Origin: Actinomycetota bacterium
GTDB lineage: Bacteria; Actinomycetota; Actinomycetes; Actinomycetales; Dermatophilaceae
Direction of reading: 5' to 3'
Assembly (NCBI GenBank): GCA_020161845.1
Contig: JAIUNK010000005.1
Location: 105,814 to 169,813 of the forward strand
Length of the DNA: 64,000 nt
Position numbers and translations under genes: made by a program. A model generated the notes under the pieces. The model saw only the letters and a program-made list of their open reading frames with translations, searched no databases and was not told where the DNA came from. Shown in pieces: positions 49,575 through 64,000 of the stretch. The stretch's first letter is position 1; each line of letters begins with the position of its first letter.

Positions 49575-50134
49575 CACCGGGCACCTCGCGGGGCATCCTG
49601 GACGGTGGCTGGTCGCGGCGGTTGGGCTCGGACCGCGGCGAGCCGGGCCGCCGCCTCCTCGATCCAGCGCAGGTCGGCGTCGAGATGGGCCAGTTCGTAG
49701 GTGAGCGCCATGTCCTCCAACGGCAGCGCGCCGTCGCGGGCCCGGGTGAGCTCGCGCATCCGGCGCAGGTGGCTGGCGCGCTGGAGGTCCAGCACCTGGC
49801 CGGCGTCGCGGTCTGACATCAGCGCGACCGAAACGCGGGCGAACAGCGTGCTGGCCGCGAACACACCCGGCGGTTGCGGTTCGTAGACCCAGGCGTCAAG
49901 CACGGTGACTCCCTCGCCGGTGATGCGGTAGCGCTTGCGGTCCGGCCCGTCGCCGGCCTCCACGTCGACCACCTCGGCCCAGCCCTGCCGCTCGAAGCGG
50001 GCCAACGAGGCGTAGACCTGGCCGTACGCGAGGGGCTTGGTGTGGGCGAAGCGCTCGTCGTACTGGCGCTTGAGGGTGTAGCCGTACGCCGGGGCCGGTT
50101 CGAGGAGCCCAAGGAGGGCGTGTGCGGCGGACAT
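49574..50134 (-). CDS. PadR-family transcriptional regulator
   Basis: The 186-residue protein has a PadR winged-helix N-terminus SAAHALLGLLEPAPAYGYTLKRQYDERF with wing DGPDRKRYRITGEG, then a C-terminal helical (Vir_act_alpha_C-like) domain. PadR proteins repress adjacent transporter or catabolic genes. The ATG at 50134 lies 7 nt after TAGAGT (50147-50142), so leaderless. A perfect 14-bp palindrome just upstream is the probable operator. It is the first gene of the ABC operon. Confidence 0.9.
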   Translation of the reverse strand: MSAAHALLGLLEPAPAYGYTLKRQYDERFAHTKPLAYGQVYASLARFERQGWAEVVDVEAGDGPDRKRYRITGEGVTVLDAWVYEPQPPGVFAASTLFARVSVALMSDRDAGQVLDLQRASHLRRMRELTRARDGALPLEDMALTYELAHLDADLRWIEEAAARLAAVRAQPPRPATVQDAPRGAR

Positions 50135-50141
50135 GACCGGC

Positions 50142-50169
50142 ACTCTACACCGTGCGTATACGCACTGTG
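50142..50169 (-). promoter_or_regulatory. padR promoter with GTGCGTATACGCAC operator
   Basis: The 14-bp perfect palindrome GTGCGTATACGCAC occupies 50152-50165 and is flanked by CAC and GTG (outer limits 50148-50169). It lies directly upstream of the -10 box TAGAGT (50147-50142). Position and symmetry suit a PadR dimer site with autoregulation of the operon. Confidence 0.65.
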
Positions 50170-50266
50170 AATAGCTTGTGGTGGCACGGCGGGTTTGTGG
50201 TGGCACAGCGGGTTCGGCTGTCGACTGGACGATTCGCCGCGCCTGGGAACCTGCCTCATACAGCAG

Positions 50267-50295
50267 CTCGGCCGCCCGCGATGCGGGCGGCCGAG
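50267..50295 (-). terminator. Strong hairpin after the lysine-rich micro-gene
   Basis: Perfect 13-bp arms CTCGGCCGCCCGC and GCGGGCGGCCGAG enclose a 3-nt loop, beginning 8 nt after the stop codon of the 16-codon gene. There is no strong U tract, as is common for actinobacterial terminators. Its location supports the micro-gene being a real transcription unit. Confidence 0.75.
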
Positions 50296-50302
50296 CCGGA
50301 AG

Positions 50303-50353
50303 TCACTTCTTCTTGGACTTCTTGTCCTTCTTCTTGGACTTCTTCTTCGCCAT
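50303..50353 (-). CDS. 16-residue lysine-rich peptide
   Basis: A complete small gene encodes MAKKKSKKKDKKSKKK. GGGAGGG lies 7 nt before the ATG, one of the best ribosome sites in the window, and a 13-bp hairpin follows the stop. All lysines except none are AAG, and the composition (11 Lys of 16) is unlike frame noise. A divergent small HTH gene starts 160 nt away with shared dyads between them. The function is unknown; a nucleic-acid-binding or charge-based role is only speculation. Confidence 0.65.
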   Translation of the reverse strand: MAKKKSKKKDKKSKKK

Positions 50354-50410
50354 GTCGTTCCCTCCCATCGGGACTCGCGGCAGTGGAGGCTCACGGCATC
50401 GGAGACTTGT

Positions 50411-50506
50411 GCGTCAACTTCTGCTTGACGCTTGAGGAGAGTCAAACACGGGGACGCAGCGAAGTCAACTATTTCTTGACGCTGCGCCCGGGCCCGCGCG
50501 TAGACT
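50411..50506. promoter_or_regulatory. Divergent control region with two GTCAA-N7-TTGAC dyads
   Basis: GTCAA-N7-TTGAC occurs at 50413-50429 (with GC/GC extending the arms to 50411-50431) and at 50464-50480, 51 bp apart. The second copy contributes TTGACG, 19 bp upstream of TAGACT (50501-50506), the -10 of the HTH gene. The region separates the lysine-rich micro-gene from the HTH gene. The dyads may be operators or mirror-image -35 elements. Confidence 0.55.
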
Positions 50507-50512
50507 CGCGCC

Positions 50513-50782
50513 GTGCGTTCCTCCGACCAGCGGATCCAGCGCGAACTTGCAGCGCTCCAGGAGGCCGATGATCCGCTGGCCCGTCTCGACGCCGCGCGCC
50601 GGCTGCGCGTCCACGCCGAGGCGGTGGAGTCCGAACTGGTCGCCGCGGCCCGCGCCGCCGGGGTGTCCTGGGCGAAGATCGGCAAGCTCTACGGAATGAG
50701 CAAGCAGGGCGCCCAGCAGCGCTTCCGGCCCGCCATCGCCGAGACGCCCCCGGCCGCTGGGGTGGCGGTGCCCCCGCGCTAG
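50513..50782 (+). CDS. Small helical protein with helix-turn-helix
   Basis: The 89-residue protein has a helical, charged N-terminal half and VSWAKIGKLYGMSKQGAQQRF (about 50-70), a helix-turn-helix like those of short actinobacterial DNA-binding proteins. TAGACT lies 6 nt before the GTG, so the message is probably leaderless. It is divergent from the lysine-rich micro-gene and could regulate it. No characterised homologue was recognised. Confidence 0.72.
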   Translation: MRSSDQRIQRELAALQEADDPLARLDAARRLRVHAEAVESELVAAARAAGVSWAKIGKLYGMSKQGAQQRFRPAIAETPPAAGVAVPPR

Positions 50783-51231
50783 GGCGCCGAGTGCCTCAGA
50801 AGGGCGAGGGCGGCCAGGTCGTCGAGGAAGGCCAGGATCACGGCGCGCTCCACGGGGGTGCGGGCCTCGGCCACGTCTCGGACGCTCTCCAGGAGAGGCC
50901 CGAAGCTGGCGATGCCGGAGGCGGCGGCGGCCTCGGTGACCTCGAGGAGGACTCGGCGACGGTCGCCGGGGTCGGCGGTACGCCGCACGAGGCCGCGCCC
51001 TTCCAGGCGGTCGATGACCTGCGTGGTCGAGGCCGAGGCAAGGCCCACCTCGCGACCCAGGGCGCCGGCCGTGGCCGGTTCTGCGGCTCGGCGCAGGTCG
51101 TTGAGGGCGATCAGGGCCCGAATATCGGTGAGGTTCATCCCGTGCTCGCGCGCGAAGGTGGCTCCCTGCGTCGACAGCTGCACGACGGCACGGCGTACCG
51201 CCGTCACGATCTGCCCGGATGACACGTCCAT
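50779..51231 (-). CDS. MarR-family transcriptional regulator
   Basis: The 150-residue protein has the MarR winged helix: MNLTDIRALIALNDLR, TAGALGREVGLASASTTQVIDRLEGRGLVRRTADPGDRRRVLLEVTEAA, with the conserved DRR wing. MarR proteins usually repress a divergent gene until a phenolic or oxidant ligand binds. TAAACT (51244-51239) lies 7 nt before the ATG at 51231. A dyad operator overlaps the region shared with the divergent mycothiol-dependent enzyme. Confidence 0.9.
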   Translation of the reverse strand: MDVSSGQIVTAVRRAVVQLSTQGATFAREHGMNLTDIRALIALNDLRRAAEPATAGALGREVGLASASTTQVIDRLEGRGLVRRTADPGDRRRVLLEVTEAAAASGIASFGPLLESVRDVAEARTPVERAVILAFLDDLAALALLRHSAP

Positions 51232-51238
51232 AGGGGGC

Positions 51239-51279
51239 AGTTTAGTCTCTCGCCGTACGAGATATTCGCGAGGCGAGAG
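51239..51279. promoter_or_regulatory. MarR control region with TCTCG dyads
   Basis: CTCTCGCC (51247-51254) and GGCGAGAG (51272-51279) are perfect inverted arms, and inside them TCTCG-N5-CGAGA (51248-51262) forms a smaller dyad like the TCTCG-type sites of MarR regulators. The -10 box TAAACT of the marR gene and the ribosome site of the divergent gene border it. Confidence 0.55.
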
Positions 51280-51287
51280 GAGTTGCC

Positions 51288-51974
51288 GTGAGCACGGTGG
51301 GTGAGAGCGTCGCCGCCCGTACGGCGTCGAACCGGGTGCGAATCGCGGAGCTGTACGACGAGATCCCGGCGGACCGACTCGGAACGGCGAGCCTGTGTGC
51401 CGGTTGGGACCTCCGCACCCTGCTCGGGCACCTGGTGATGCCGCTGGTGATCCCCCCGGCGCGATTGGTCGGGAGCGCGGTACGGCACGGCTCGGTGCAC
51501 CGCGCGTCCGCGGCATTGGCTGCCGAGCTGGGGAGGCGCCCGGTGTCCGAGCTCACCGCGGTGTTGCGAGAGCGTGCCGCGCGGACGGTATGGGCGCCGG
51601 GGGTCGGCCCGATGGGCCAGTTCGTGGACGGCTGCGTGCATCTGCGCGATGCCGCTCGGCCGCTCGGCGCCGACGTCGATGTGCCGCCGCACGACTGGGC
51701 GCTCGTGTTGTCGTGGCTGCCGACCCGCGCGGCGGGTTTGGGGCATGTGCCCCGCGGTCTGTTGACGGGGCTGTCGTGGCACGCGAGCGACGTGGACTTT
51801 CGGCACGGCTCCGGGCCCGAGGTGTGCGGACCCGCCGAGGTCCTCGCCCTGGCGATGACTGGGCGTGCGGTCGTCGTCCCCGAATTGACGGGGAGCGGCG
51901 TGGCCGAACTCCGCGGGCGACTGACGGCGGCCGGGGCGCCAGGTCACGGGAGGGTGGATCCGGCGGGGGATTGA
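51288..51974 (+). CDS. Mycothiol-dependent maleylpyruvate isomerase-family protein (DinB-like)
   Basis: The 228-residue protein matches the DinB/MDMPI metal-binding fold: ASLCAGWDLRTLLGHLVMP holds a Trp and the first His, VDGCVHLRDAARPLG the next His and GLSWHASDVDFRHGSG a later part. These proteins often use mycothiol in isomerisation or thiol transfer. The GTG at 51288 has GAGAGGAG upstream. It is divergent from marR, so probably repressed by it. Confidence 0.82.
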   Translation: MSTVGESVAARTASNRVRIAELYDEIPADRLGTASLCAGWDLRTLLGHLVMPLVIPPARLVGSAVRHGSVHRASAALAAELGRRPVSELTAVLRERAARTVWAPGVGPMGQFVDGCVHLRDAARPLGADVDVPPHDWALVLSWLPTRAAGLGHVPRGLLTGLSWHASDVDFRHGSGPEVCGPAEVLALAMTGRAVVVPELTGSGVAELRGRLTAAGAPGHGRVDPAGD

Positions 51975-52347
51975 GGCTGGCCCGGCCTGCTGCGGCGCAG
52001 ACCGAGCAGCAGCAGGAGGCCCCAGATCAGGAAGAGGGGGTCCCATAGCCAGGCGTGCCCGATCATGGCGGCGCGGTCTTGCGGGCCGTCACCCAGCAGG
52101 CCGGCCAGCGCGAGGTTGGCGAGCACACAGTTCGCCCCGCCCCAGACCACCAGGACGACGGCGGCCAGCCACGTCACTGCGCGGGTGATAGCCAGGTGCC
52201 ACCGAGCATCCAGTACGCGCTGATCGTCGCGTGCACCAGCCCCGGAATGGCCGCCACCGCGAACCATGGCCGCCCACCGCCACGGACGTCGTACGTCACC
52301 GCCCCCACCGCCCCCGGCCGTGCCCCGCCGGACCCCGTACGTTCCAT
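51944..52347 (-). pseudogene. Decayed DUF3995-type membrane protein
   Basis: From the ATG at 52347 one frame encodes MERTGSGGARPGAVGAV then AAIPGLVHATISAYWMLGGTWL, the DUF3995 opening, and meets a TGA within about 57 codons. A second frame continues with AVTWLAAVVLVVWGGANCVL and HAWLWDPLFLIWGLLLLLGLRR to the stop at 51944. The two halves account for the ends of the family with the middle deleted and the frame changed. It overlaps the end of the preceding convergent gene by 31 nt. Confidence 0.78.
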
Positions 52348-52373
52348 GCCGCCAGGCTCCCAGGCTCACTGGG

Positions 52374-54026
52374 TCAGAACGGTGGTGGGCCGGGGTCGGG
52401 CGGGGGTGTCGAGCCATCGGTGCCGCTGGCGGGCGGTCGGCCGTCCAGCGTCGCGTCGGGGGACTCGCCGGTGTCGGGGTCGCTGTATCGGTGCGGTTCG
52501 GTGGTGTAGCGGCGACCCGTCTGGGTGGACCAGGTCAGGGGGCCGTTGGCATTGGTGACGGCGTTGGCGGTAGTGCCGTCGGCGGTGTCGGCGTCGGCGG
52601 TGGTGGTCATCCCTCCAGGCGCGGTGGCGGGCGACCAGTGGCCGCTCGTGTGGTGGCCGTGGTGGCGGCGGCAGTGCGCGGCGAGGTTGGTGGTGGAGGT
52701 CTCGCCCCCGTCGGCGAACGGTCGCACGTGATCCAGGTCGCCGGTGGTGGCGGGGCTGGTGCAGCCGGGGGCGCGGCAGCGGTGGTCGCGGGCGGTGATG
52801 AACCGAGCCATCGCGGCCGTGGGCCGGTAGCACGGTGTCGACAGTTCGAGGGCCTGGCCGGTGCGGGGGTCGGTGATCAGGCGGGCCCAGACCGAGCCTG
52901 CGCGCACGGCGAGGTCTCGGGTCAGGTCGGCGGGGAGGTAGCCCCAGCCGACCAGTTCGCCAGGCTCGCTGGTGAGGCCGAGCAGGCTGCTGAGGGGAAC
53001 GATGACAGTGGCGTGGGCGTCGGGGAGACCTCCGGGGTAGGCCGCCCGCAGCGCGGCCCCGGTCGTGTCGCCGGTCGTGTCGCCGGTGGTGTGGCTGGCG
53101 TGATCAGGGGCCGGTGGAGTGCACGGTGCGGTGCGACGTGGGGCCGGGTCCGTGGTGTCGCACAGCGCCGGGCTATGACCGTGCAGGAGCAGGTCGAGGC
53201 CGATGTCGGCGCGCAGCTGGGCCAGGGTGCGGGGGTCCCCCGCGTGGCGGAGTCGTCGGGCGAGCCGGTCGAGGCGGTCGTGGGCGGCGGTGACGCGTTC
53301 GGTGCTGCCGCCGATCCCGAGAGTCGCCGTGTCGTCGTCGCCCAGGCGGACGGAGGTGTCGCGGCGGCCGAGGGCTTCGGCGCGGCGAACTCGCCCGGGG
53401 ATGCGCTTCTTGAGTTCCTTGGCGAGGCGATCGGCGATCAGGCGGGGGCTGGGGGTGGTGCCGTCGCGGGTGGGACGCAGTACGGCACTGGCGACGTCGT
53501 TGGCCTGGTCGGCCGGCAGCGGCGTGCAGCCGGTGATGATCGTGCGGGCGCGCCACCAGCCGATCTGCCCAGTGGTCAGCGCAGCCAGCGCGCTCGTGGT
53601 GCGGTCCGGTTCGCGGCGGGCGAGCACGCCGGTTTCGGCGCGGGCGGTGGCATCGCCCCGGGCCAAGCCGGTGGCCAGGCAGATTTCGTCGATGATCGAG
53701 GTGCGGGCGTGAGTCATGGTCTGAGCGCGTTCGGTGGCGGTGGCGCCGTAGTGGTTCAGGTCGGCGCGGGTCCGGTCCTCGCTCCAGGACAGCAGGGCCC
53801 CCGCCGCGGTGACGGAGAGCCGGTCCAGCCAGGCCTTGGCGGCCTCGACCTCGGCCAGCACGGAGATCACCTCGTCGGCGCTGTCGATGTCATCGAGCGC
53901 GATCGTCATCGTGGGCGGCCTGGTGCGACGCAGTTCGCTAAGGCGGGCGCGGACGTCCGGCAGCGAGCCGGGCCGGGTCGCGCACTGCGCCACGGGCAGA
54001 CCCGCGACGATGTTCGGATCGCCCAC
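52374..54026 (-). CDS. DUF222 protein with C-terminal HNH endonuclease domain (13E12 type)
   Basis: The 550-residue protein has a DUF222 domain (about 25-300, with VLAEVEAAKAWLDRLSVTAA and TSIIDEICLATGLARGDATARAE), a variable linker and an HNH domain near 430-475: CRAPGCTSPATTGDLDHV, then TSTTNLAAHCRRHHG. This architecture is repeated many times in actinobacterial genomes and is presumed to cut DNA, though its biology is unknown. The GTG at 54026 follows GGGGGAGG; an ATG 81 nt upstream opens a run without family likeness. The C-terminus is Pro/Asp/Thr-rich. Confidence 0.85.
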   Translation of the reverse strand: MGDPNIVAGLPVAQCATRPGSLPDVRARLSELRRTRPPTMTIALDDIDSADEVISVLAEVEAAKAWLDRLSVTAAGALLSWSEDRTRADLNHYGATATERAQTMTHARTSIIDEICLATGLARGDATARAETGVLARREPDRTTSALAALTTGQIGWWRARTIITGCTPLPADQANDVASAVLRPTRDGTTPSPRLIADRLAKELKKRIPGRVRRAEALGRRDTSVRLGDDDTATLGIGGSTERVTAAHDRLDRLARRLRHAGDPRTLAQLRADIGLDLLLHGHSPALCDTTDPAPRRTAPCTPPAPDHASHTTGDTTGDTTGAALRAAYPGGLPDAHATVIVPLSSLLGLTSEPGELVGWGYLPADLTRDLAVRAGSVWARLITDPRTGQALELSTPCYRPTAAMARFITARDHRCRAPGCTSPATTGDLDHVRPFADGGETSTTNLAAHCRRHHGHHTSGHWSPATAPGGMTTTADADTADGTTANAVTNANGPLTWSTQTGRRYTTEPHRYSDPDTGESPDATLDGRPPASGTDGSTPPPDPGPPPF

Positions 54027-54286
54027 CACACCTCCCCCGTCTTCGCATTCATGTGCTATGTGCACGATATCGCACCGAGGAGAGCAAATGCAATATGCGT
54101 TCGACACAATGACACGAGGTCTCCTGACAGTCAGTCGCCGTCCTGACTCGCGCGGTCGAGCCCCGTCAAACGTGTTGTCACTGGCTGCGACATGCAGACA
54201 GGAGGCCCCTTCGCCACGACGGCGTCCTGACGGGTGACGGCTCTGTTTCCACGGCCAAAGCCTGAATAATTATCACGGATGGGCGC

Positions 54287-55102
54287 TTAGTCGCTGCGCG
54301 CATGAATGGCCGCGATGGTCCGGGCCAGCACCGTGGTCAGCGGCGTCGGCGCCAGACCGAAGCGCTGCTGCGCCGCCGTACTGTCGAGCACGAACGGCCG
54401 CTCGAACTGGTGCCGCGTCTCCCGGAGCGCGCCCAGCAGCGGCACGACCGGGCCGAGGCCGGTGACCACCCCCCGCGGAAGCACGCGCAGCCGGCCCAGC
54501 GGCCGATCGGTGATCGCCTGAACCTGGTCGAGGACGTCCGCCACGGTGACCGGGTCGGCGGTGGGCACATGCCAGGCCCGGCCGTAGTCCGACTCCTGCT
54601 CGCTGCGGGCCAACCGCGCCACCAGCGCGGCCACGTCGCCGTCGTACGTCCAGGAATGCGGCACGTCGCGGCGGCCCATCGGCAGGTACGCCGTGCGACC
54701 GCGCAGCAGCGGCGCCAGGATCATGCCCCCGAGCAGGCTGGAGGACAGCGTCTCCGGGCCGAGGTAGTCGCTGGCGCGCACCTCGACCGCCCGCAGCCGT
54801 CCGGCGCGGTGCCGATCCAGGGCGTCGGCCCACATCCGGGCCCGTACGGCGCCCTTCGGCCCGGTCGGGGCGATGGGGGTCGCCTCGGTCATCGGGGCGG
54901 TGACCTGCCCGTAGAGGTAGAGATTCGACACCGTGACCAGCCGTGCGCCGGCCTCCTCGGCGGCATTCAGGATCGCAGCGGCCAGCGGTGGCCAGTCGCG
55001 CTCCCAGCGCGTATAGGAGGCGGGGTTGACGGCGTTGATCACGCTGGTCGCCCCGCTGACCAACGCCCCGAGCGCGGCCCCATCGCCGACGTCCAGCGCC
55101 AC
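54287..55102 (-). pseudogene. NAD-dependent epimerase/dehydratase missing its NAD-binding start
   Basis: The 271-codon frame aligns with extended short-chain dehydrogenases from about their third strand on: VALDVGDGAALGALVSGATSVINAVNP, LVTVSNLYLYGQV, EVRASDYLGPE and HSWTYDGDVAALV. The N-terminal Rossmann beta-alpha-beta with GxxGxxG is absent; the frame upstream reaches a TGA about 50 nt earlier with no such motif. It is divergent from a TetR gene that also lacks its start. The truncated protein should not bind NAD normally, so it is scored as a pseudogene, but expression of a shortened form is possible. Confidence 0.65.
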
Positions 55103-55158
55103 TCGACGTACCGAACCCGTCGCGGACCCAGGCAGCCCCGCGTCGGTGCCGGGTCAGC

Positions 55159-55791
55159 GTGGGGGCGGCAGCGCTGTCGGTCCGTCAGGTGGCTCGGGAC
55201 CTGGGGATGGCCAGTTCGGCGGTGTACCGCTATGTCGCCAGCCGGGACGACCTGCTGACCAGGCTGATCGTGCAGTCGTACGACGAGCTGGGCGAGCACG
55301 TCGAGCAGGCCGAGGCGGCGGTCGCCCGCGCGGACCTGCGCGATCGGTGGTTCGCGGTGGGGCACGCGACCCGCCGGTGGGCGCTGGCCCATCCGCACGA
55401 CTGGGCGCTGCTCTACGGCTCGCCGGTGCCGGGATACGCCGCGCCCGCCCAGCAGACCATCGGCCCTGGCACCCGGGTCCAGGTGGTGCTGATGAGACTG
55501 CTGGCGGACATCGTGGCGCAGGGTCGAGCAGCGCCAGCGCAGCGGCGACCCCGGCCGGTGCCGGTCCTGGTGGAGTTTGGCGCGGGGGTCGGCGAAGCGC
55601 TCGGCGTCGAGCCGGATGGGGTGCCGGCTGACCTGGCCGTGGCCGGCGTCACGGCGTGGATGATGCTCATCGGGGCTGTGAACAGCGAAGTCTTCGGCTA
55701 TCTCGGCGAGGGCGGTGAAGACGCTGAGGCCGTCGGCGCCGCACTGTTCGACTACACCATCAGTGCCGCCGTGGCCCTGCTGCTGCGGTAG
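55159..55791 (+). pseudogene. TetR-family regulator missing the first helix
   Basis: The frame begins within the usual helix 2 of the TetR domain: GAAALSVRQVARDLGMASSAVYRYVASRDDLLTRLIVQSY, followed by a C-terminal WHG-like domain (YGSPVPGYAAP, GVEPDGVPADLAVAGVTAWMMLIGAVNSEVFGYL). The first 20-25 residues needed for helix 1 are not found in any frame upstream. It lies 57 nt from the similarly truncated divergent epimerase. Translation from the GTG at 55159 is possible, giving 210 residues. Confidence 0.6.
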
Positions 55792-55825
55792 CTGACGACC
55801 GAGGGGCGGCGTGGCCGGCGCGCTG

Positions 55826-56938
55826 TCAGGCGTCGAGTTCGATGGCTGTCGCCACGGCGGTCGACGCCGTGGTTGCTGCGGAACGGTTGGCCTCACCGGT
55901 GCGCCGCTGCGAATCCACCGCGACGTCGGCGAACTTGATGACGTGTTCGCCGCCGTGAGCCACGGCCCGTGCCCACGCCTCGTCCGCCGTCTCCGTCGTC
56001 TTCAGGCCCTCGCGCGGCGCATCGGAGGCGGGCCGGTAGCAGGCCACGACTGCGCAGGTCGCCGCCCATGCGGCGTCGACGGAGGCGAGCGCCAGGTGCT
56101 GTGGGAGTGCGGGCAGGGCACGGGCGACCGCGGCCGGCGCTGTTGCGGCGTGCACGAGCATGGTTGCGTTGCCGTGCGCCCACCGGGGGTAGGCGGCAAT
56201 CGCGGCGTCGCTGATCGCGTGCATCTCCGCGAGCGGATCGGCCGGGTCGTGGGGCGCGCGTACGGCGGCGACGGCGTCGCCCCACCCCGGGGTGTGCGGC
56301 AGTTGGGCCAATCGACTCCGGATCCCGTGCCGCTGGCTCGCGATGCGGGGCACCGTGGCCAGGGCACTTGCTCGATCGAGCTGGCCCGCGGGCGCCAGTG
56401 ACGGGGTGGGTTGCCAGCGGGCGGCCCAGTACGCCAAAGCATGCGCGAGTTCGTGGCGCCGGGGTTCGGTGTCGGCGGCGCGAAGGGCCTGTACGGCGTG
56501 GCCGACGCGAATGACTCCATGGGTGGCGCCCGCGGCGATACCCGGCAACAGGCGAGGCCACCACGTGACGAGCACGTGCTGCCAGGGTTCCTCGGCGACG
56601 GCCCGGAGCATGAACTCGATCCAGTCGCCGCTGCGCACCGGGTCGCCCAGGGGGTCGCGCCAGGCCTCGGAGTCGATGGGGCTGATGCCCCGGGGCCGCT
56701 CGTCGAGCCGCGAGATGTAGCCGTCGCTCCACGAGTGCACGTGGCGCTCGGCTCCGCGGCGGCTCAGAGCTTCGATGACCATCGGGCCATGGTTGCTGAG
56801 CCAGCCTTGGCGTTCGGGTCCGGTCGCGTGAAAGCGCAGCAGTGCCTCGTCGTACGCGCCTTCGCGGGCGCCCTCGGCGGCCGAGGCGTGGGGATCGGTG
56901 GAGCTGGCGGGGTGTTGCGGTGCGCGTGTTTCGGTCAT
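55826..56938 (-). CDS. Questin-oxidase-family protein (DUF4243)
   Basis: The 370-residue protein belongs to the questin oxidase family, named for the fungal enzyme that opens the anthraquinone ring of questin by a Baeyer-Villiger-type reaction. Recognisable stretches include ERQGWLSNHGPMVIEAL, LVTWWPRLLPGIAAGATHGVIRVGHAVQAL, LAHALAYWAARWQ and HVIKFADVAVDS. The promoter is a MerR-type one with a SoxR box in a 19-bp spacer, and the ATG lies 7 nt after the -10 box. With the divergent soxR this suggests a quinone- or redox-cycler-induced oxygenase. The real substrate is unknown. Confidence 0.82.
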   Translation of the reverse strand: MTETRAPQHPASSTDPHASAAEGAREGAYDEALLRFHATGPERQGWLSNHGPMVIEALSRRGAERHVHSWSDGYISRLDERPRGISPIDSEAWRDPLGDPVRSGDWIEFMLRAVAEEPWQHVLVTWWPRLLPGIAAGATHGVIRVGHAVQALRAADTEPRRHELAHALAYWAARWQPTPSLAPAGQLDRASALATVPRIASQRHGIRSRLAQLPHTPGWGDAVAAVRAPHDPADPLAEMHAISDAAIAAYPRWAHGNATMLVHAATAPAAVARALPALPQHLALASVDAAWAATCAVVACYRPASDAPREGLKTTETADEAWARAVAHGGEHVIKFADVAVDSQRRTGEANRSAATTASTAVATAIELDA

Positions 56939-56945
56939 GCTGGTT

Positions 56946-56976
56946 ATCCAATGATGTCAAGTGGACTTGAGGTCAA
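56946..56976 (-). promoter_or_regulatory. SoxR-dependent promoter with 19-bp spacer
   Basis: On the minus strand TTGACC (56976-56971), a 19-bp spacer and TTGGAT (56951-56946) lead to the ATG at 56938 after 7 nt. The spacer contains TCAAGT-GG-ACTTGA (56957-56970), matching the SoxR box CCTCAAGT-N2-ACTTGAGG well. The lengthened spacer with a central dyad is the hallmark of MerR-family activation. Confidence 0.8.
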
Positions 56977-57435
56977 GTGTCTCTTAACGCACGGGATCTG
57001 CTCTCGATCGGAGAGGTCGCACGCCGCGCCGGCATCGCCCCGTCGGCGCTGCGCCACTACGAGTCCCTCGGCCTGATCGCGAGCCACCGCACGGCGGGGG
57101 ACCGGCGCCGCTACGAGCGCAGCGTGTTGCGCCGAATCGCCACGATCCGGGCGGGGCAGCGAGTGGGCCTGTCCCTGGACGAGATTCGCGCGACGTTCGC
57201 GGGGCTCGAACCCCATCAGGCCCCCACGCGCCAGCAGTGGCGGCGGATTTCGGCGCGCTGGCAGCCGGCGCTGACGCAGCGGATTCGCGAGCTCGAGCAG
57301 GTCCGGGACAACCTGTCGAACTGCGTCGGCTGTGGCTGCCTGTCGATGCGTCAGTGCGCGCTGTTCAACCCCGACGACGGGCTCGCGGCTTCAGGCCGGG
57401 CCGGCGCCCGTCGGCTCTTCCCCAGCGACGACTGA
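56977..57435 (+). CDS. soxR: Redox-sensitive transcriptional activator SoxR
   Basis: The 152-residue MerR-family protein has the winged helix LLSIGEVARRAGIAPSALRHYESLGLIASHRTAGDRRRYERS and a dimerisation coil. The 2Fe-2S cluster motif is CVGCGCLSMRQC (C-x2-C-x-C-x5-C), exactly the SoxR arrangement. SoxR is activated when redox-cycling compounds oxidise the cluster. The GTG at 56977 is the earliest reasonable start and abuts the SoxR box. It is divergent from the questin-oxidase-like gene. Confidence 0.94.
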   Translation: MSLNARDLLSIGEVARRAGIAPSALRHYESLGLIASHRTAGDRRRYERSVLRRIATIRAGQRVGLSLDEIRATFAGLEPHQAPTRQQWRRISARWQPALTQRIRELEQVRDNLSNCVGCGCLSMRQCALFNPDDGLAASGRAGARRLFPSDD

Positions 57436-57511
57436 GCGAGGCCAGCCCCGCCGTACAGTCGCTTGCGCTGGTCGCGCGGGATTGACGCGACCGAGGGCTA
57501 CCGGTCCTGTC

Positions 57512-58534
57512 TCAAAGCCGGCGGTAGCGGTCCGCCAGGTTGGGGTCGCTCAGCCACCACGGCTGGTCCGCCGCCGGTGTGCCCTGGTCGGCGTCCGCCC
57601 CGTCGAGCGGGAGCGGCTGTTCAGGCGATGACGCCACGCCAGGGGCTGGAGCGTCGACGCCCGGCCGCCGAATCGCGGTCTGGGCCTGGGCGGCACGCCG
57701 GGCATCGTCGTCGGCGTCCGCGAGCCGGGTCTGCACCGCATCGACCCGCATCCACGCCACCACCGCCCCGAACAGCACTGGCAATCCCACCGCCTCGGCG
57801 ACGCAGAGCAAGATCGCCCCGGCCAGGGCCTGGTCGGCCATCACCTTCGCCGACGAAGTCTCGATCGCCGGGCGCCACAGGGGGCTGGCGGCGGTCATGA
57901 TCACGATGCCGGCGATGGCATCCGCGACGCCATCCAGCGCCGCCAGCCCCACCCGGACGGGCGGAGTACACCACCGCGGCAGCAGCTCGGCCGCCTCCCC
58001 GAGCAGCGGCAGCACGAACGACACCCCCACGGCGAGCAGGATGAGGTAGGTCGCCTCCCGGGACGCAGCGGAGTCCACCGTCGCCTGGTACCACCCGGTC
58101 AGGAACAGCGCGAGGGTGACCGTGGCGGCCATCACGGCGCTGAAACCCGGGTACGCCGCGATCCGCAAGACAGGTGAGCGCAGCGCGGCGGCCAACGCAG
58201 CACGGACGCGCGGCGCCTCGACGGCCTGGATGAGGGTCACCGGCCGACCCAGCGCCAGGCCCGTAGGTGCCACCGCGACGAGGAGGGCCGCCTGCCACGC
58301 CCCCGCCTGCAGGCTGACTCGCCGCAGCTCGCCGAGACCGGAACAGGTGGCGACGAGCACGGGCAGTACGCCGGCCACGACGTACAACACGGCGTCGATG
58401 ACCCGCGCCCGGTGGCCCGCGGCCCGGGCGGATCGCCACGCCCAGGCGTAGCCGACCAGCAAGGCGATCGTCGCGATCAGGCCCGTCGGGGAGAACGCCG
58501 GCGTGGCCACCGCCGACCAGGTGAGCGCGTCCAC
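57512..58534 (-). CDS. CtaG-like (Caa3_CtaG) membrane protein lacking the usual histidines
   Basis: The 340-residue protein has eight to nine hydrophobic segments and a hydrophilic tail ending QPWWLSDPNLADRYRR. The arrangement APTGLALGRPVTL, LRSPVLRIAAYPGF and DQALAGAILLCVAEAVGLPVLFGAVVAWMRVD follows actinobacterial CtaG cytochrome oxidase assembly proteins. However, the His-rich QH and H-x-HF motifs expected in the central helices are replaced (for example LQAGAWQAA), so copper handling is doubtful. TAGCGT (58547-58542) lies 7 nt before the GTG. Family assignment is by pattern and moderately sure. Confidence 0.62.
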   Translation of the reverse strand: MDALTWSAVATPAFSPTGLIATIALLVGYAWAWRSARAAGHRARVIDAVLYVVAGVLPVLVATCSGLGELRRVSLQAGAWQAALLVAVAPTGLALGRPVTLIQAVEAPRVRAALAAALRSPVLRIAAYPGFSAVMAATVTLALFLTGWYQATVDSAASREATYLILLAVGVSFVLPLLGEAAELLPRWCTPPVRVGLAALDGVADAIAGIVIMTAASPLWRPAIETSSAKVMADQALAGAILLCVAEAVGLPVLFGAVVAWMRVDAVQTRLADADDDARRAAQAQTAIRRPGVDAPAPGVASSPEQPLPLDGADADQGTPAADQPWWLSDPNLADRYRRL

Positions 58535-58620
58535 GCTTCGGACGCTAGCACCGGACCTGAAGCTGACCTGGCCCAGCGCGCGACGAAGAACAGAGGCGAC
58601 GCGTCAGCGCAGCGCGCATC

Positions 58621-59361
58621 TCATGACGAGAGCAGGACGAACGCGAGAGGTACGCCGTTGGCCAGCGCGTGCGCGAGGAACCCCGGCAGAAAATTGCCCG
58701 TACGTCGATAGAGCAGCGTGAGGATCACCGAGAAGGTGACGAATCCGGGGATGAGCAGGAGCTGATCTGGGTGCCCGTCGAGCCAGCCCACGACGACATG
58801 CTGCAGGGCGAACACCAGCCCCGTCGCCACGTGTGCGACAGGCACGTTGACGCGTTCGAGCAGGCGGAACAGGCCGTACCGGTAGCTCACTTCCTCCTCG
58901 AAGGGGCCCACGACGACGAAGAGAAGGTATAGCCAGGGTTGCGCGCGAAGCTGCTCCATCCCGCCGGCGGTGTTGAGGTTGGTCAGGGGTACGCCGAGTG
59001 CCGCCCCGATCATGGGCTGAAGGATGCCCTGCACCAGCACATTGGCCAGGGCGACTAGGACGACGAAGGTGACGAGTCCGGTCGCCACGATCCGGCCCGG
59101 CCGTCGCGCCGAACCGCGGAAGGCGTCACCGATCGGTCGCCAGAGCAGCGGCAGGAGCACGATCCACAGCGGCAGCGCGAAGGGCAGCAGCCGGAACCAC
59201 ATCAGCAGCATCAGCACCCAGAACACGCCGACGCACCAGGCCTCCCAGCGGCCGAAGCGTTCGTCGTATCCCCGCCCAGCCTCGCCGTACCACCGCCGCA
59301 CCCTGCCCCGGCTGTCCCACCGTCGCACCCGGCCCCCGCCGGCGCGCCCGCGACCACCCAT
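58621..59361 (-). CDS. CPBP-family intramembrane glutamic endopeptidase
   Basis: The 246-residue protein has a basic Gly/Arg N-terminus and about seven hydrophobic segments. The CPBP (Abi/Rce1) motifs are visible: EEEVSYRYGLF (E-E-x3-R, near 155), a His in VFALQHVVVG (near 180) and HALAN near the C-terminus. Such proteases process prenylated proteins or bacteriocin-related peptides. TACGGT (59374-59369) lies 7 nt before the ATG at 59361, which sets the start 45 nt downstream of a longer in-frame start. Confidence 0.85.
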   Translation of the reverse strand: MGGRGRAGGGRVRRWDSRGRVRRWYGEAGRGYDERFGRWEAWCVGVFWVLMLLMWFRLLPFALPLWIVLLPLLWRPIGDAFRGSARRPGRIVATGLVTFVVLVALANVLVQGILQPMIGAALGVPLTNLNTAGGMEQLRAQPWLYLLFVVVGPFEEEVSYRYGLFRLLERVNVPVAHVATGLVFALQHVVVGWLDGHPDQLLLIPGFVTFSVILTLLYRRTGNFLPGFLAHALANGVPLAFVLLSS

Positions 59362-59481
59362 AACAGCGACCGTACAGCGCCGCCCCGCACACCGGTCAGT
59401 TCCCACCTGACAAGGGCCGATCGCCTGGTCTCGCCCGGGCGTACCCGCCGGAGGCTGGTCAGGAGGTTCTAGCGGGGCCTT

Positions 59482-59871
59482 TCACTGGCCGACGGGCCAG
59501 TGGGTCACCTCGATCTCGGTCATCGGGAAGTCCTTGGGGTTGCCGGTGGCCAGGGGCGCTCCGGCCCTAACGCAGGCCGCAGCGATCAGGCAGTCGGCCT
59601 GCCACAGGGTGCGTCCGCGATTCGCGTAGTCGCGGCGCCAGCGGCCGGCCAACCACGCGTCCTGTGTCGTGATCGGCAACACCACCAGGCCGTCGATGAG
59701 CGTTTCGGCAGCGCCGCGCTCCGCCTCGCGCAGGCCACGGACGATCTCCTCGACGTTGATGACCGTGGTCGCCGGGGTGATATCGCGTTCGAGGAGGGCC
59801 TAAACGCGACTCACCGCCGGGCGTCCGCGCAAGTAGTCGATGAGAACGGTCGTGTCCAGGATCTGGAGCAC
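59482..59871 (-). pseudogene. VapC (PIN) toxin with an in-frame nonsense codon
   Basis: From the GTG at 59871 the frame reads VLQILDTTVLIDYLRGRPAV to a TAG at 59802-59800, then continues in the same frame with ALLERDITPATTVINVEEIV, LVVLPITTQDAW, WQADCLIAAACV and ATGNPKDFP to the stop at 59482. All four PIN acidic positions are present, so a single CAG-to-TAG change would explain the break. No intact antitoxin gene lies upstream, only a short open stretch ending at 59874. Confidence 0.85.
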
Positions 59872-59961
59872 GATCAGCCGCCGCGCCGCTGGTCGCCGTG
59901 GCGACCCGACCGCACCCAGGCCGCTGGGTCGCAGTCCATGACGACCGCAGTGAATCCCTCG

Positions 59962-60009
59962 TTAACTGCGGCGAAAGGCGCTGCGGGCACCGCCTTTTGC
60001 CGCAGTTAA
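59962..60009. repeat. Large inverted repeat with 19-bp arms
   Basis: Arms TTAACTGCGGCGAAAGGCG (59962-59980) and its reverse complement (59991-60009) match except at one position and enclose 10 bp. A related smaller dyad, CGGCAAA-N4-TTTGCCG, is at 60086-60103. They occupy the stretch 59872-60179, which otherwise has no recognisable gene. Confidence 0.8.
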
Positions 60010-60179
60010 TCCTCGGCAGAGCCAGCCCGCCGCTGCGTTGCCCGCCGGTGATGCTGTCGCCCGGCGTTAGCCGACGACCGCCGTACGGCAAAACCCTTTG
60101 CCGCACGCGCTGGCGGCATCGCATCATGGCCTGGCCGGGCCCTACTGCCCGGCCCCGCCAGAGCAAAGGAGAGGTGACA

Positions 60180-60283
60180 TGACGCAACCCGTTGTCGGCC
60201 TGACCACGGCCGTCCCCGATCCTTCTCTGTCCTGGAGTTCTCGTGCCTTCAGCAGCTCGGCGGCCCCGGCGCCGCTCCCGTAA
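60180..60283 (+). CDS. 34-residue small ORF overlapping the RIO kinase start
   Basis: AAAGGAGAGGTGAC precedes the ATG at 60180 and is one of the strongest ribosome sites in the window. The product, MTQPVVGLTTAVPDPSLS and a Ser/Ala/Pro-rich end, stops at 60283, 41 nt inside the RIO kinase gene in another frame. It may be a leader peptide controlling kinase translation or a small protein. No homologue is recognised. Confidence 0.5.
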
Positions 60284-61211
60284 CACCGATCGATTCGACG
60301 ACCCCGTCGAGGCGTTTGGCGCCGACGACACGGCGTACGACGAATCCCACAACTTCGCGATCGCCGCGCCGCCCGCACCGACCGGCGAGTCACCCGCCGC
60401 CGCGGCGTTCGTCGGCGATTACCAGCCGTACGACGACCTGGGCGAGGGTCAGCGGTGGTCCTCCTGGGACGACCTGGAGGCCCTGTGCAGGGGGCCGGAA
60501 CCGCGGCCGCACTGGTTGGTGACCTCCTCCGGGGCGATCGACACCGACCTGGGCATCCTCAAGACCGGCAAGGAAGCGGACGTTTACCTGGTCGAGCGCC
60601 GCGACCCGCACCTGCGCGACGCGGTCGTGATGGCGGCCAAGCGGTACCGCGACGCCCAGCACACCAACTTCCGACGCTCGGCCAGCTATGCCGAGGGCCG
60701 CAGCGTCAAGCGCAGCCGTGACCAACGCGCCTTGGCGACCAACACCTCGTGGGGCCGGACGGTGGCCTCCATGGAGTGGGCCAACGCCGAGTGGAACGCG
60801 CTGCGCCGGGCCTGGCAGATCGGGCTGCCGGTGCCCTACCCGGTGCAGATCGACGGCACCGAACTGATGATGGAGTGGATCAGCCATGACGGGCAGACCG
60901 CGCCGCGGCTGGCCCAGACTCGGCCGGACGAGGCCCTGCTGGCCGACTACTTCGAGCAGTTGCGCGAGGCCATGGCGATCCTCGCCCAAGACGGCTGGGT
61001 GCACGGGGACCTGTCGCCGTACAACATCCTCGCCGCCGGTCCCCGGTTGGTCATCATCGACCTGCCGCAGATCCTCAGCCTGACCGGGCATGACCGCGGC
61101 TTCGAGTACCTGCGGCGCGATTGCACCAATGTCTGCCGCTGGTTCACTGCTCGGGGGCTCGCGGCCGATCCGGAGGAGCTGTACGACGACCTGCTGCGGC
61201 ACGCGTTCTGA
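60243..61211 (+). CDS. RIO1-type serine/threonine kinase
   Basis: The 322-residue protein has the RIO kinase core after an N-terminal low-complexity stretch of about 60 residues: ILKTGKEADVYLVE (ATP loop, near 107), Lys in VVMAAKRYRDAQHTNFRR, catalytic loop WVHGDLSPYNIL (near 255) and metal site LVIIDLPQ (Asp near 271). Bacterial RIO kinases are scarcely characterised; archaeal and eukaryotic ones act in ribosome maturation. GGAG lies 7 nt before the GTG at 60243. A small ORF overlaps the start. Confidence 0.92.
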   Translation: MPSAARRPRRRSRNTDRFDDPVEAFGADDTAYDESHNFAIAAPPAPTGESPAAAAFVGDYQPYDDLGEGQRWSSWDDLEALCRGPEPRPHWLVTSSGAIDTDLGILKTGKEADVYLVERRDPHLRDAVVMAAKRYRDAQHTNFRRSASYAEGRSVKRSRDQRALATNTSWGRTVASMEWANAEWNALRRAWQIGLPVPYPVQIDGTELMMEWISHDGQTAPRLAQTRPDEALLADYFEQLREAMAILAQDGWVHGDLSPYNILAAGPRLVIIDLPQILSLTGHDRGFEYLRRDCTNVCRWFTARGLAADPEELYDDLLRHAF

Positions 61212-61278
61212 GCTGCGGCTCGCAGCGGGGCAGCCAGTGCGAGTGGCAGGACCGACCGCGGCGTGGGTGTAGCGCAGG

Positions 61279-61339
61279 GAAATCTGGAGTTTCCTGGGGG
61301 GAGACCTAGCATTCCCCGGCATGGAATCTGGAGTTTCCC
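61279..61339 (+). repeat. Twin GGAAATCTGGAGTTTCC-like elements upstream of the metallopeptidase
   Basis: GGAAATCTGGAGTTTCC at 61279-61295 recurs with one base missing as GGAATCTGGAGTTTCC at 61324-61339. Each is a dyad with GGAA/TTTCC ends. Between them TAGCAT (61307-61312) lies 8 nt before an ATG that opens an 11-codon frame ending at 61356. Promoter and operator roles are guesses. Confidence 0.5.
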
Positions 61340-61498
61340 GGGTTCCGGGACGCTAGTCCTGCGGCTATTCCGGCAGCTCGACCTCCTTCTGCCCGCCGGT
61401 CGACCTCTCCAGCGCTCGTGGCGAGTGATGAACACGGGATCACTCGGATTTGTCATGATGGGGCGGTCACGATCACCTCGGGCGGCAGGGGGCCGACC

Positions 61499-62257
61499 AT
61501 GCGCAGGCGTTGGGTCCGGTGGCTCGCACTCACTTTCGGGGTACTGATCCTGCTGGCTGTCGCCTCGTTCATCCCCACGTTGTGGCTGCGCGACCCTGGC
61601 ATGACCGAGGTTCGCGGCGAGTACGTGACGCTCTACCGCGGCTCGCAGGGGCAGGCGGCGCTGGACGTGCTGCAGCGGGCGGACGGCGATGCGGCTCGGC
61701 TGATCCAGCGGCTGGAGCTGTCGGGCCGGCCGGAGGTAAGTGTCTACGTTTACGACTCGCAGTACGTCATGGCGAGCCATAAGTACGGGTGGCTGGTGCC
61801 GCTGATCGGACTGGACTGGTACATCGGGGACAACCGCGGCACGAACGTGCTGCTCACCTCGCCGGCCCGGCCGGGGGCGGCCCATGACTACGCCACGGTC
61901 CGTGACGCCGTCTCGCACGAGCTGGTGCACGCCTACGTCTCGACGATGAACCCTGATGTCCGCCTGTGGCTCACGGAGGGCATGGCACTGCACCTGACCA
62001 ACGGCAAGCCGCTGCCGCCGGGGTACGCCGGCGGCCACTATCTGCCGACATTCGAGCAGACCCAGACCGGCAACCCGATCGAGTTCAACGAGATCGGGGG
62101 CTACGACCTGGCCCACACCTACATTGCGTACGTCGAGCGCATGCACGGCTGGGAGAAGGTGCTCAAGCTGGTCCGGACGGGCGATTATCAGGGCTCGCTC
62201 GGGGTGGGAGAAAAGGAGGTGTACGACGCCTGGACCGCGGACCTGACGCATCGTTGA
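61499..62257 (+). CDS. Membrane-anchored zinc metallopeptidase (gluzincin, peptidase MA-like)
   Basis: The 252-residue protein has an N-terminal TM helix (about 8-28) and a periplasm-side domain with the zinc motif SHELVHAY (H-E-x-x-H, near 142) and a third ligand Glu in WLTEGMALHL (near 160). It ends with helices around LAHTYIAYVERMHGWEKVLKLV. The layout fits the small MA-like family with an unknown substrate. The ATG at 61499 follows GGCAGGGGG; a start 81 nt upstream is less likely because the TM helix would be displaced. Confidence 0.82.
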   Translation: MRRRWVRWLALTFGVLILLAVASFIPTLWLRDPGMTEVRGEYVTLYRGSQGQAALDVLQRADGDAARLIQRLELSGRPEVSVYVYDSQYVMASHKYGWLVPLIGLDWYIGDNRGTNVLLTSPARPGAAHDYATVRDAVSHELVHAYVSTMNPDVRLWLTEGMALHLTNGKPLPPGYAGGHYLPTFEQTQTGNPIEFNEIGGYDLAHTYIAYVERMHGWEKVLKLVRTGDYQGSLGVGEKEVYDAWTADLTHR

Positions 62258-62308
62258 GGCCTGGAACGTTGCCTGTGGCGCCCTCGGCCCGAAGTGCGGG
62301 TCTGGCCC

Positions 62309-62719
62309 TCAGCGGGGTTCATCCTCGGGCGGGGAAAACACCTCACAACGGAGGCCGTGGGCGCGGGCGAGACGCCGATCGCAGGTGGCCAGCGGCGCGC
62401 CGATGGCTTCGGCGAGCGCGACGTACCAGCCGTCGTACGTGGTGACGGCCGACCGCAGGGCGATGATGCGCTTGGCGAATGGGGCGTAGGGGTACAGCTC
62501 GACGGGGAGGGAGGCTAGATCGGCGTGGGCGAGCAACGCGACGTCGCGGCTGATGTTTCCGTTGAGTTCAGCGCGTCGAAGGACATTGGCGCATTCCGCG
62601 GGCATCAGGTGCGGGGCGACCAGGCCGCCTCCGCCGAGGAGATTCAGCGCCCACGAGCCCCGGGCGGAGTTCTCGACGAGCGCGGCGGCGACCGTGGAGG
62701 CGTCGATGACGAGCGTCAC
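62309..62719 (-). CDS. vapC: PIN-domain toxin (VapC)
   Basis: The 136-residue protein shows PIN residues in TLVIDASTVAAALV, LMPAECANVLRR, TTYDGWYVALAE and LATCDRRLARA. It overlaps the upstream antitoxin gene by 4 nt (ATGA-type). Predicted ribonuclease toxin, the tenth TA locus of the window. Confidence 0.93.
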   Translation of the reverse strand: MTLVIDASTVAAALVENSARGSWALNLLGGGGLVAPHLMPAECANVLRRAELNGNISRDVALLAHADLASLPVELYPYAPFAKRIIALRSAVTTYDGWYVALAEAIGAPLATCDRRLARAHGLRCEVFSPPEDEPR

Positions 62720-62961
62720 GGGAGCTCCGCATCGCGCAATGCGAGGTCGCCGAGCCGGCCGCCGCCCGTCGCGGCCTTGCGGGCGCGCACCTGGGCGGCC
62801 CAGTCGTCAGGTTCGGGGCGCGAGGCCCATTCGACCAGGTGGCCGCGGACATACTCCTGGAGCGACCGGCCGGACCGTGCCGCCCGCCCGCTGATCTCGT
62901 CCAGCACCGCCGTGGGGATGTCCCGCACGGTCAGCGCCTTGGTTGCTGAGACGCCTGTCAT
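62716..62961 (-). CDS. vapB: VapB-type antitoxin (FitA-like ribbon-helix-helix)
   Basis: The 81-residue protein has KALTVRDIPTAVLDEISGRAARSGRSLQEYVRGHLVEWA, the FitA-like ribbon-helix-helix domain, and an acidic C-terminal tail. TATTAT (62973-62968), close to consensus, lies 6 nt before the ATG at 62961, so the message is probably leaderless. The frame continues far upstream but without family likeness. The toxin gene follows with overlap. Confidence 0.9.
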   Translation of the reverse strand: MTGVSATKALTVRDIPTAVLDEISGRAARSGRSLQEYVRGHLVEWASRPEPDDWAAQVRARKAATGGGRLGDLALRDAELP

Positions 62962-63035
62962 GCCTGCATAATAGCAGCGCCGCTGCCGGTGCGTCATCTG
63001 CTGAGAGGGCCCCGCGCGGATCGCCTCGATGAGCC

Positions 63036-63240
63036 TCACCCGAAAAGGCCAAGACTGAGCACGGCCAGCGTCATCGCGAGGGTCGCGCACGCCGCGCCCG
63101 CAAGGGCGAGACGGCCCAGCCGCCACCCGACGCCCGCGGCGCGACACCGCTGCAGCCATAGGAGGGTGGCGAGGGAACCCCAGGGGGTGATGATCGAGCC
63201 GGCGTTCGTGCCGATTAGGGCGGCCAAGGGGATGTTGCGC
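63036..63240 (-). pseudogene. C-terminal remnant of an SLC13/ArsB-type permease
   Basis: The frame gives ALIGTNAGSIITPWGSLATLLWLQRCRAAG and two hydrophobic stretches to the stop at 63036. The GTNAG/ITPWGSLATLLW block is the conserved late loop of SLC13/ArsB-like ion transporters, of which the first 350 or more residues are missing. It lies near an insertion sequence. The following stretch to 63680 holds no recognised gene. Confidence 0.68.
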
Positions 63241-63681
63241 CTCGCAGTTGAGGTGGTCGAGCGGCAGAAAGGTCAGAAATACATTCTTCATATCCCGCAC
63301 CGTCAGATGCGCCTGATGGATGGAGCGATGGTCGCCGCTGAGCCCGCAGGTTTCGGCTCGCTGCTTGGCGCCTACCTTGACGAAGAATAGATACCGTCCT
63401 AGTCCGATCCGCCCCGCCTCACGGCCATAATCCGGTGCGCATGTTCCTTTACGGGCGGGCTGATCCGGACGCAATCGCGGACCTTTTTGTTAAGACGGAA
63501 GTGGTGTAGGTCGCGGCGATTCCTGTCCGAGCTCTAGGTCGATGAACTGCGGCTGTACAGGATGCCGAGATCATCTTCGTCTCGCTTTCTTGTCCAGATC
63601 TTCAGGCCGGCGATGGCAGGGGCAGTTCATTCTGGGGTTGTCGGCGTGGCGGCGTGACGACACGCCGGTGTGGGTGTAAGG

Positions 63682-63752
63682 GCAGGCATGACGGTCGCGG
63701 GATCGTAGTGAGTGTCAACGTCACCCGAGCCCATGGAGGTCGTCATGCCTGC
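63682..63752 (+). promoter_or_regulatory. 12-bp inverted repeat pairing with the transposase start codon
   Basis: GCAGGCATGACG (63682-63693) is the exact reverse complement of CGTCATGCCTGC (63741-63752), which contains the transposase ATG. In an RNA starting before 63682 the arms would pair and hide the start codon and part of its ribosome site. Confidence 0.6.
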
Positions 63753-64000
63753 GTTCGTATCGTCTCTCGTTGCGGGGCGCTCGCCAAGCCTGGCGCCGGT
63801 GATCGCTGAGGAGATCCCCGAACTCGTTCAGGTGCTGTCCGTGTTGCCTGATCCCCGTCGTGCGCAGGGCCGGCGGTATCGGTTTCGCGGCTGTATTGAC
63901 GGCATTGATCGCGGCGGCCTGTGCGGGGGTGACCTCCTACGCTGCGGCCGCCCAGTGGATCGCTGACCTGCCCCGATCGGTCTTGTCGCGGATCGGGATA
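63745..64000 (+). mobile_element. ISAs1-family transposase, 5' part with frameshift (runs off the window)
   Basis: From the ATG at 63745 (GGAGGT upstream) the frame encodes MPAFVSSLVAGRSPS and IPELVQVLSVLPDPRRAQGRRYRF, the ISAs1 transposase N-terminus. Near 63885 the likeness moves to another frame, FAAVLTALIAAACAGVTSYAAAAQWIADLP, which stays open to the window end. The element is therefore frameshifted here, or contains a sequencing error or programmed shift. The IS terminal repeat and right end cannot be seen. Confidence 0.75.

Follow-up and report, generated by a model that had tools for sequence, protein, structure and literature searches.

The locus raises the question whether a palindrome between two divergent genes, soxR and the questin oxidase-like gene here called Q, is the operator through which SoxR switches on Q, and what reaction Q would then catalyse. 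Direct reading of the window (the whole 64-kb stretch of DNA analysed) gave, on the minus strand, the layout that the initial annotation had described, TTGACC, 19 bp, TTGGAT, 7 nt and ATG, arranged around TCAAGTccACTTGA. The −35 hexamer TTGACC (56976..56971, minus strand) abuts the start codon of soxR on the opposite strand; the 19-bp spacer (56970..56952, minus strand) has the length typical of the MerR family, a layout shared by homologous loci; the −10-like hexamer TTGGAT (56951..56946, minus strand) stands 7 nt (56945..56939) before the Q start codon ATG (56938..56936, minus strand), and its distance to the start codon is kept in homologues. The putative SoxR box, TCAAGT-GG-ACTTGA (TCAAGTGGACTTGA on the plus strand, 56957-56970), lies inside the spacer as had been claimed, but is not exactly centred there: 7 bp separate the −35 hexamer from the middle of the box, which is thus off mid-spacer. 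In this distance it resembles other MerR-family sites (CueR, MerR and relatives, 7–8 bp; PMC5045206, in part). The geometry is that expected of a SoxR-activated promoter, i.e., a palindromic box overlapping a 19–20 bp spacer with its centre 7–8 bp from the −35.

The gene soxR (56977..57435, plus strand; 152 aa; GTG start at 56977 chosen from the ORF list, directly abutting the −35) encodes a product that matched the equivalog model TIGR01950 with 180.8 bits (cut-off 116.9; E 1.1e-53). The structure 2zhg (E. coli SoxR) was aligned to residues 6–147 (E 6.7e-36). The [2Fe-2S] motif C-x2-C-x-C-x5-C is intact, all four cluster cysteines being kept, and a genuine soxR next to Q, as annotated, is thereby confirmed; motif definition and signals, redox-active small molecules, are given in PMC4146615 (in part). 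A second SoxR of the same genome (L034, contig C49:30498-30923, outside the window) is 54% identical to that of the window; immediately upstream of its start stands CTCAAGTCCAGGTGAG, apparently the remnant of a box, with TAGACT and ATG next in line, and this protein may control its own gene. Downstream of the window soxR follow genes of a CtaG-like membrane protein (57512-58534), an Rce1-like protease (58621-59406) and a RIO-type kinase (60243-61211); none of the three had a counterpart beside the pair in the eight Q records compared.

The box is scarce. At up to two mismatches, 0.20 matches were expected in the window (shuffles) and one was found, exact; the exact box has a single copy in the genome of 4,392,256 bases vs 0.013 expected (base composition of the window). 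A search of the own genome with −35 plus box (≤2 mismatches) returned just the Q site and its own reverse reading; at three mismatches four more rows appeared. The mismatch-free site TTGACNTCAAGYNNRCTTGA occurred once per genome, at Q, in 4/4 window-type genomes searched (own, G432, G411, G335; 3.9–4.4 Mb; four of the five known, the L037 genome being left out). Metallococcus carri (G439) has its mismatch-free site at Q too, and two sites with one mismatch elsewhere, one of them beside soxR. Nocardioides psychrotolerans (G459) does not fit the pattern of one site at Q: it has no mismatch-free site, its Q site carries two mismatches and three sites elsewhere carry one.

Scanning of GTDB genomes with a Q profile gave at least 510 relatives among 594 pattern matches, and the best 80 (L037–L116) were kept. 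Using the pattern TTGACnTCAA-N6-TTGA (2 substitutions allowed; same strand, 20–140 nt upstream of the aligned Q start), a MerR-type element was found upstream of Q in 40 of these best 80 of at least 510, vs 0.10 expected. The expectation was derived from the 21 other matches, which were spread over 993,360 bases (both strands), and is an overestimate, since several of the 21 overlap Q elements read in reverse and those of L068, L078 and L101 lie just outside the interval near Q. Related loci are not independent trials, and on the Q tree the element is clumped: 20/20 rows of one group, 19/26 of the window's group, 2/35 of two other groups, plus L069. A chance match of the box was rejected on the single exact genomic copy and on these counts. 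A lack of conservation of box or 19-bp spacer in homologous loci, which had been named as the case against SoxR control, was not observed: the general MerR-type element stands in 40/80 loci, and the layout recurs in the pair loci described below; −35 TTGACC recurs in L037, L038, L039, L040 and L123.

The first in-frame start codon lies 37–38 nt from the first −35 base in 35 of the 40 loci with the element and 34 nt from it in three (none in two). With a spacing of 37–38 nt the transcript would be expected to start at the start codon, suggesting a leaderless Q mRNA.

The other 40 loci (17 Streptomyces, 10 Nonomuraea or other Streptosporangiales, 13 others) had no element in the preset interval and no adjacent soxR, and SoxR control of the whole Q family was therefore rejected. 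Outside the 80, a mismatch-free element was present in L005, and none was found within 300 nt in L004 (L041 genome), L006, L007, L008, L162, L164 and L165. Metallococcus carri (L003, same DNA as L038) has TTGACC-19-TTGGCT-7-ATG with half-sites CCTCAAGC and GCTTGAGG; its soxR is on a contig other than that of Q. Elements at Q in Micromonospora are more degenerate (TCAAGC..GGTTCA, TGAACC..GGTTCA), and the Micromonosporaceae element might serve a MerR protein other than SoxR. With a looser pattern, candidate elements (e.g., TTGAGT-TGAAGTgcACTTCAACT before a start codon) were seen near soxR in 22 of the loci fetched, many of them Micromonosporaceae. In the soxR neighbourhoods L133–L159, mainly of Micromonosporaceae, TGAAGT..CTTCA commonly takes the place of TCAAGT..ACTTGA in the candidate elements. 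Many of these lie in promoters of the form TTGAGT-19-CAGGCT or GAGGCT, the ATG following after 6 nt, and the SoxR operator may have drifted here.

A search of actinobacteria for soxR adjacent to DUF4243-type genes, proposed with the annotation, found the pair in L037, L039, L040, L069 and L123. Among the best 80 of at least 510 relatives, soxR is divergent from Q in four: L037 (Nocardioidaceae MAG), L039 (Nanopelagicales MAG), L040 (Actinomycetota MAG) and L069 (Nocardioides psychrotolerans). When 394 genomes of the class were searched for close SoxR proteins (E up to 1e-47), nine genomes had one, own included, and the pair was present in three further loci, of which L124 is the same DNA as L039, L126 the same as L040, and L123 is new. 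Distinct window-type pair loci thus number five (window, L037, L039, L040, L123), and L069 carries a SoxR of another branch. Comparison of window frames of at least 120 codons (48000-64000) with eight Q records, three of which hold merely 1.5 kb each side, revealed no third conserved gene around the pair; the conserved unit is two genes, since the sole matches were frames overlapping soxR and Q. No reductase gene was found linked to the pair. L041 (Phycicoccus MAG) and L101 (Kineosporia) belong to the window's Q group, yet have no soxR beside Q; L042 showed a weak partial MerR-like match beside Q and nothing stronger. L125 (G155:C1:255788-256225) encodes a SoxR 62% identical to the cassette type, without Q; its divergent gene, MBL-fold or rubredoxin-like by eye, is preceded by TTGACC-TCAAGTGCACATGAAGTTT-CACACT.

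A SoxR (E up to 1e-25) was found in 47/48 Q genomes reached (50 of the 80 loci submitted, L054 absent, two in one genome), the exception being the L041 genome, also without the element. This was rejected as proof of linkage and counts as weak evidence, since soxR is widespread, being present in all 55 Streptomyces species surveyed (PMC4146615, in part), and large actinobacterial genomes dominate the set; the other large genera among the Q genomes probably carry soxR commonly as well. A survey of 396 genomes of the phylum with the Pfam model (E 1e-8) gave one match and is silent on spread, since the PF14027 model detects the Q subfamily poorly.

In a tree of SoxR proteins (39 rows, 37 different) the window, L037, L123, L039/L124 and L040/L126 form one clade (99/93); the second SoxR (L034) groups with SoxRs of congeners, and that of L069 is on a separate branch. 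At least two label changes are needed on this tree, read most simply as two separate soxR/Q pairings. A quickly built tree of Q proteins (83 rows) has one group of seven rows (SH-aLRT 95), made up of the five window-type loci, L041 and L101; Q of L069 joins another long branch, its placement being unsure. The pair is accessory here, since Q was present in 4/58 genomes of the relatives search (own counted) and absent from three congeners searched; this fits horizontal acquisition without proving it. For an empty-site comparison, a gene neighbouring the pair was sought in the three congeners and not found.

Q (55826..56938, minus strand; 370 aa) stands alone by layout, being convergent with a TetR-type gene that ends at 55791. 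It was assigned to PF14027 (questin oxidase-like; ring-cleaving dioxygenase fold) by Pfam, AlphaFold2, Foldseek and profile searches. The Pfam score is marginal (27.3 bits, cut-off 27; 22 and below the cut-off in a six-frame genome-wide search), and the assignment is backed by fold and profile evidence. For the AlphaFold2 model the window Q was aligned with 43 of the 80 loci (44 sequences in all); mean pLDDT is 90.8 and pTM 0.89. The six best Foldseek matches in the PDB are PaD (8z4q, 8z4r), AflY (8yxs, a non-haem iron dioxygenase so named in the profile search results) and BTG13 (7y3w-y), with E 9.7e-7 to 3.2e-4, TMq 0.66–0.69 and prob 1.00, followed by a seventh at E 0.78. Identity to the solved fungal relatives is 11–15%, and single-sequence PDB searches with Q and with one Rhizobium relative gave no match. 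Of the narrower profiles, A1 reached PaD at no better than E 0.42 and A2 reached AflY at 0.017, without PaD; the broader nine-member profile A3, including two Rhizobium relatives, matched PaD at E 1.1e-9 and AflY at 9.3e-4.

In the A3 alignment H140, H263, T266, H332 and K335 are each matched by the same kind of residue in PaD. The histidines invariant over the nine diverse members are exactly H50, H140, H263 and H332, and the alignment of 44 sequences keeps them without exception, together with H147 and K335; among the nine, the K335 position is Lys in 7/7 actinobacterial rows and Ser in 2/2 Rhizobium rows. BTG13 binds its iron through four histidines and a carboxylated lysine. The titles of Hou (2022) and Deng (2024) describe the enzyme as non-haem iron-dependent. 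PDB titles include BTG13 mutants H58F and T299V, which by order alone would fit H50 and T266. From the model and these residues, Q is likely a dioxygenase of the PaD/AflY/BTG13 class. The annotation's quinone-degrading oxygenase holds as far as the predicted fold and the conserved histidines go, but characterised relatives cleave a hydroquinone delivered by a separate reductase and not the quinone: in the geodin pathway questin is first reduced by GedF to its hydroquinone, the form that GedK cleaves with O2, and the product keeps both oxygen atoms (PMC9890505, in part; a comparable account is in PMC8902786, in part). GedK is described as cofactor-free (PMC9890505, in part).

Two further members of the family were recorded. 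In L068 (6001-7083, Salinispora pacifica) a Q-matching stretch has one in-frame stop, which may mean a broken gene or an alignment extending beyond the true start. In L008 (Rhizobium leguminosarum plasmid NZ_CP071631.1, 118696-123211) a PF14027 gene stands in a row with genes of an FAD oxidoreductase, an amidohydrolase and an 8-oxoguanine deaminase; Ser at its K335 position hints at a different metal site or substrate.

Taken together, the locus is probably, at rather better than even odds, a unit of two genes, sensor and effector, in which SoxR serves as the dedicated switch of a single dioxygenase that opens hydroquinone rings. Regulation of Q by SoxR is very likely; a quinone substrate and a defence role of Q are plausible. 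SoxR would bind the box in the divergent Q promoter, whose −35 and −10 hexamers are spaced too widely; a redox-cycling aromatic compound (e.g., a quinone) would oxidise its [2Fe-2S] cluster, and oxidised SoxR would remodel the 19-bp spacer, allowing RNA polymerase to start a Q transcript on the ATG or directly beside it. The hydroquinone would come from reductases of the cell, perhaps those that also drive the cycling of the compound, and Q, as a dioxygenase of non-haem-iron type, would cleave the hydroquinone ring with O2, breaking the cycle and eliminating the inducer. All of these functional steps are inferred, from DNA binding and activation by SoxR to the nature of the inducer, the iron and substrate of Q and its role in detoxification. 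This reading is favoured by the genuine SoxR, the recurrent pair, the single mismatch-free site in four genomes, the promoter geometry, the predicted fold and the invariant histidines; against it stand the 40/80 loci without the element, L041 and L101 without soxR, the misfit of G459, Ser for K335 in Rhizobium, the degenerate element of Micromonosporaceae, the low identity to solved enzymes, the failure of single sequences and narrower profiles to reach PaD significantly, the lack of a linked reductase gene, and the description of GedK as cofactor-free (PMC9890505, in part) but of BTG13 as iron-dependent. Of the quinone sensor and degrader first annotated, SoxR control of Q is well supported by comparison (box and spacer kept); characterised relatives act on the hydroquinone, and quinone sensing by this SoxR is putative.

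SoxR might also control a Q that tailors a compound made by the cell itself, in biosynthesis or self-processing and not in defence. This is unlikely but has precedent, as SoxR targets answer self-made antibiotics in S. coelicolor and P. aeruginosa (PMC4146615, in part), and the Streptomyces sp. NBC_01471 plasmid NZ_CP109451.1 (L164, 450535-454248) offers a biosynthetic-looking setting: acyltransferase and sugar-binding-domain genes, then a PF14027-like gene (34% identical), with an annotated soxR convergent downstream, though no MerR-type element stands within 300 nt of the PF14027-like gene. It is opposed by the lack of a third gene conserved beside the pair in the eight records (three with merely 1.5 kb each side) and by the size of the four window-type genomes searched, 3.9–4.4 Mb. 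Six Q genomes were also searched for cyclases of aromatic polyketides, but no control gave a match, and the search weighs on neither side.

It is likewise rather unlikely that the substrate under SoxR control is no quinone or hydroquinone at all, the family name misleading and the link being one of general redox stress. Identity of only 11–15% to the solved fungal enzymes would allow it, as would the Rhizobium member among amidohydrolase and 8-oxoguanine deaminase genes, suggesting varied substrates; yet the predicted fold, four invariant histidines and the HxxT and HxxK motifs match ring-cleaving enzymes, and SoxR signals are redox-active small molecules (PMC4146615, in part). That the pair is an accident of gene order, the box regulating soxR itself or nothing, is very improbable: the box does stand directly upstream of the soxR start too, and about 13 percent of surveyed Streptomyces soxR genes have a potential box of their own (PMC4146615, in part), but loci without a neighbouring soxR still have the −35 in the same orientation and at the same distance from the Q start codon.

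The favoured reading, a SoxR switch for one ring-cleaving dioxygenase, can be set beside known systems. Dioxygenases controlled by MhqR, YodB and QsrR are not known to share the fold of Q. These regulators of Bacillus and Staphylococcus are quinone-responsive and govern detoxifying ring-cleavage dioxygenases as proposed here, but they are MarR-type or MarR/DUF24 repressors, and their dioxygenases are thiol-dependent (PMC6798810, in part); the soxR/Q unit looks like a comparable but unrelated answer. The Streptomyces sp. NBC_01294 plasmid NZ_CP108424.1 (L165, 219708-223391) carries a MarR regulator, a divergent PF14027-like gene and an alpha/beta hydrolase, with a Tn3 transposase beside them. 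In its three kinds of function this set corresponds to staphylococcal mhqRED (PMC6798810, in part), the dioxygenase being a different one.

In S. coelicolor and P. aeruginosa a SoxR of the same family directly activates, through a promoter site, a few genes of transporters or of redox enzymes that modify small molecules; the six of S. coelicolor encode a quinone oxidoreductase, a monooxygenase, an epimerase/dehydratase, a flavoprotein reductase, an oxidoreductase and an ABC transporter (PMC4146615, in part). Those regulons comprise several scattered genes, with no PF14027 member listed there, whereas here soxR adjoins its target and the four window-type genomes have one mismatch-free site each. 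The annotation's view that such a function is not usually assigned to SoxR targets stands in part: PF14027 is missing from the S. coelicolor regulon as given there, but SoxR activation of small-molecule-modifying redox enzymes was already known. The fungal enzymes GedK, BTG13, AflY and PaD share with Q the predicted fold, the family, the invariant histidines and the HxxT/HxxK motifs; GedK and related enzymes are encoded in biosynthetic clusters, where they act after a reductase (PMC9890505, in part), whereas Q is a lone gene with a redox sensor. SoxR and questin were not found together in the literature searched, which mostly excluded subscription journals; the DUF4243 papers listed are mainly on fungi, and no assigned role of a bacterial PF14027 protein was found there.

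A broader proposal is possible, though somewhat doubtful: the pair may be a mobile, self-contained quinone-defence module of actinobacteria, in which a dedicated one-target SoxR and a leaderless mRNA would deliver a four-histidine dioxygenase that cleaves the hydroquinones of redox-cycling aromatics, an unrelated counterpart of the Firmicutes MhqR/QsrR systems, possibly directed against anthracycline- or angucycline-type antibiotics of neighbours. With one sensor, one site and one enzyme, the unit would be easily rebuilt in a laboratory strain, with uses in quinone sensing and as a source of enzymes opening polycyclic quinones. If the favoured reading is true, ring-cleaving dioxygenases would join the SoxR targets as a new kind, and PF14027 proteins of bacteria would gain a physiological setting and a testable class of inducers.
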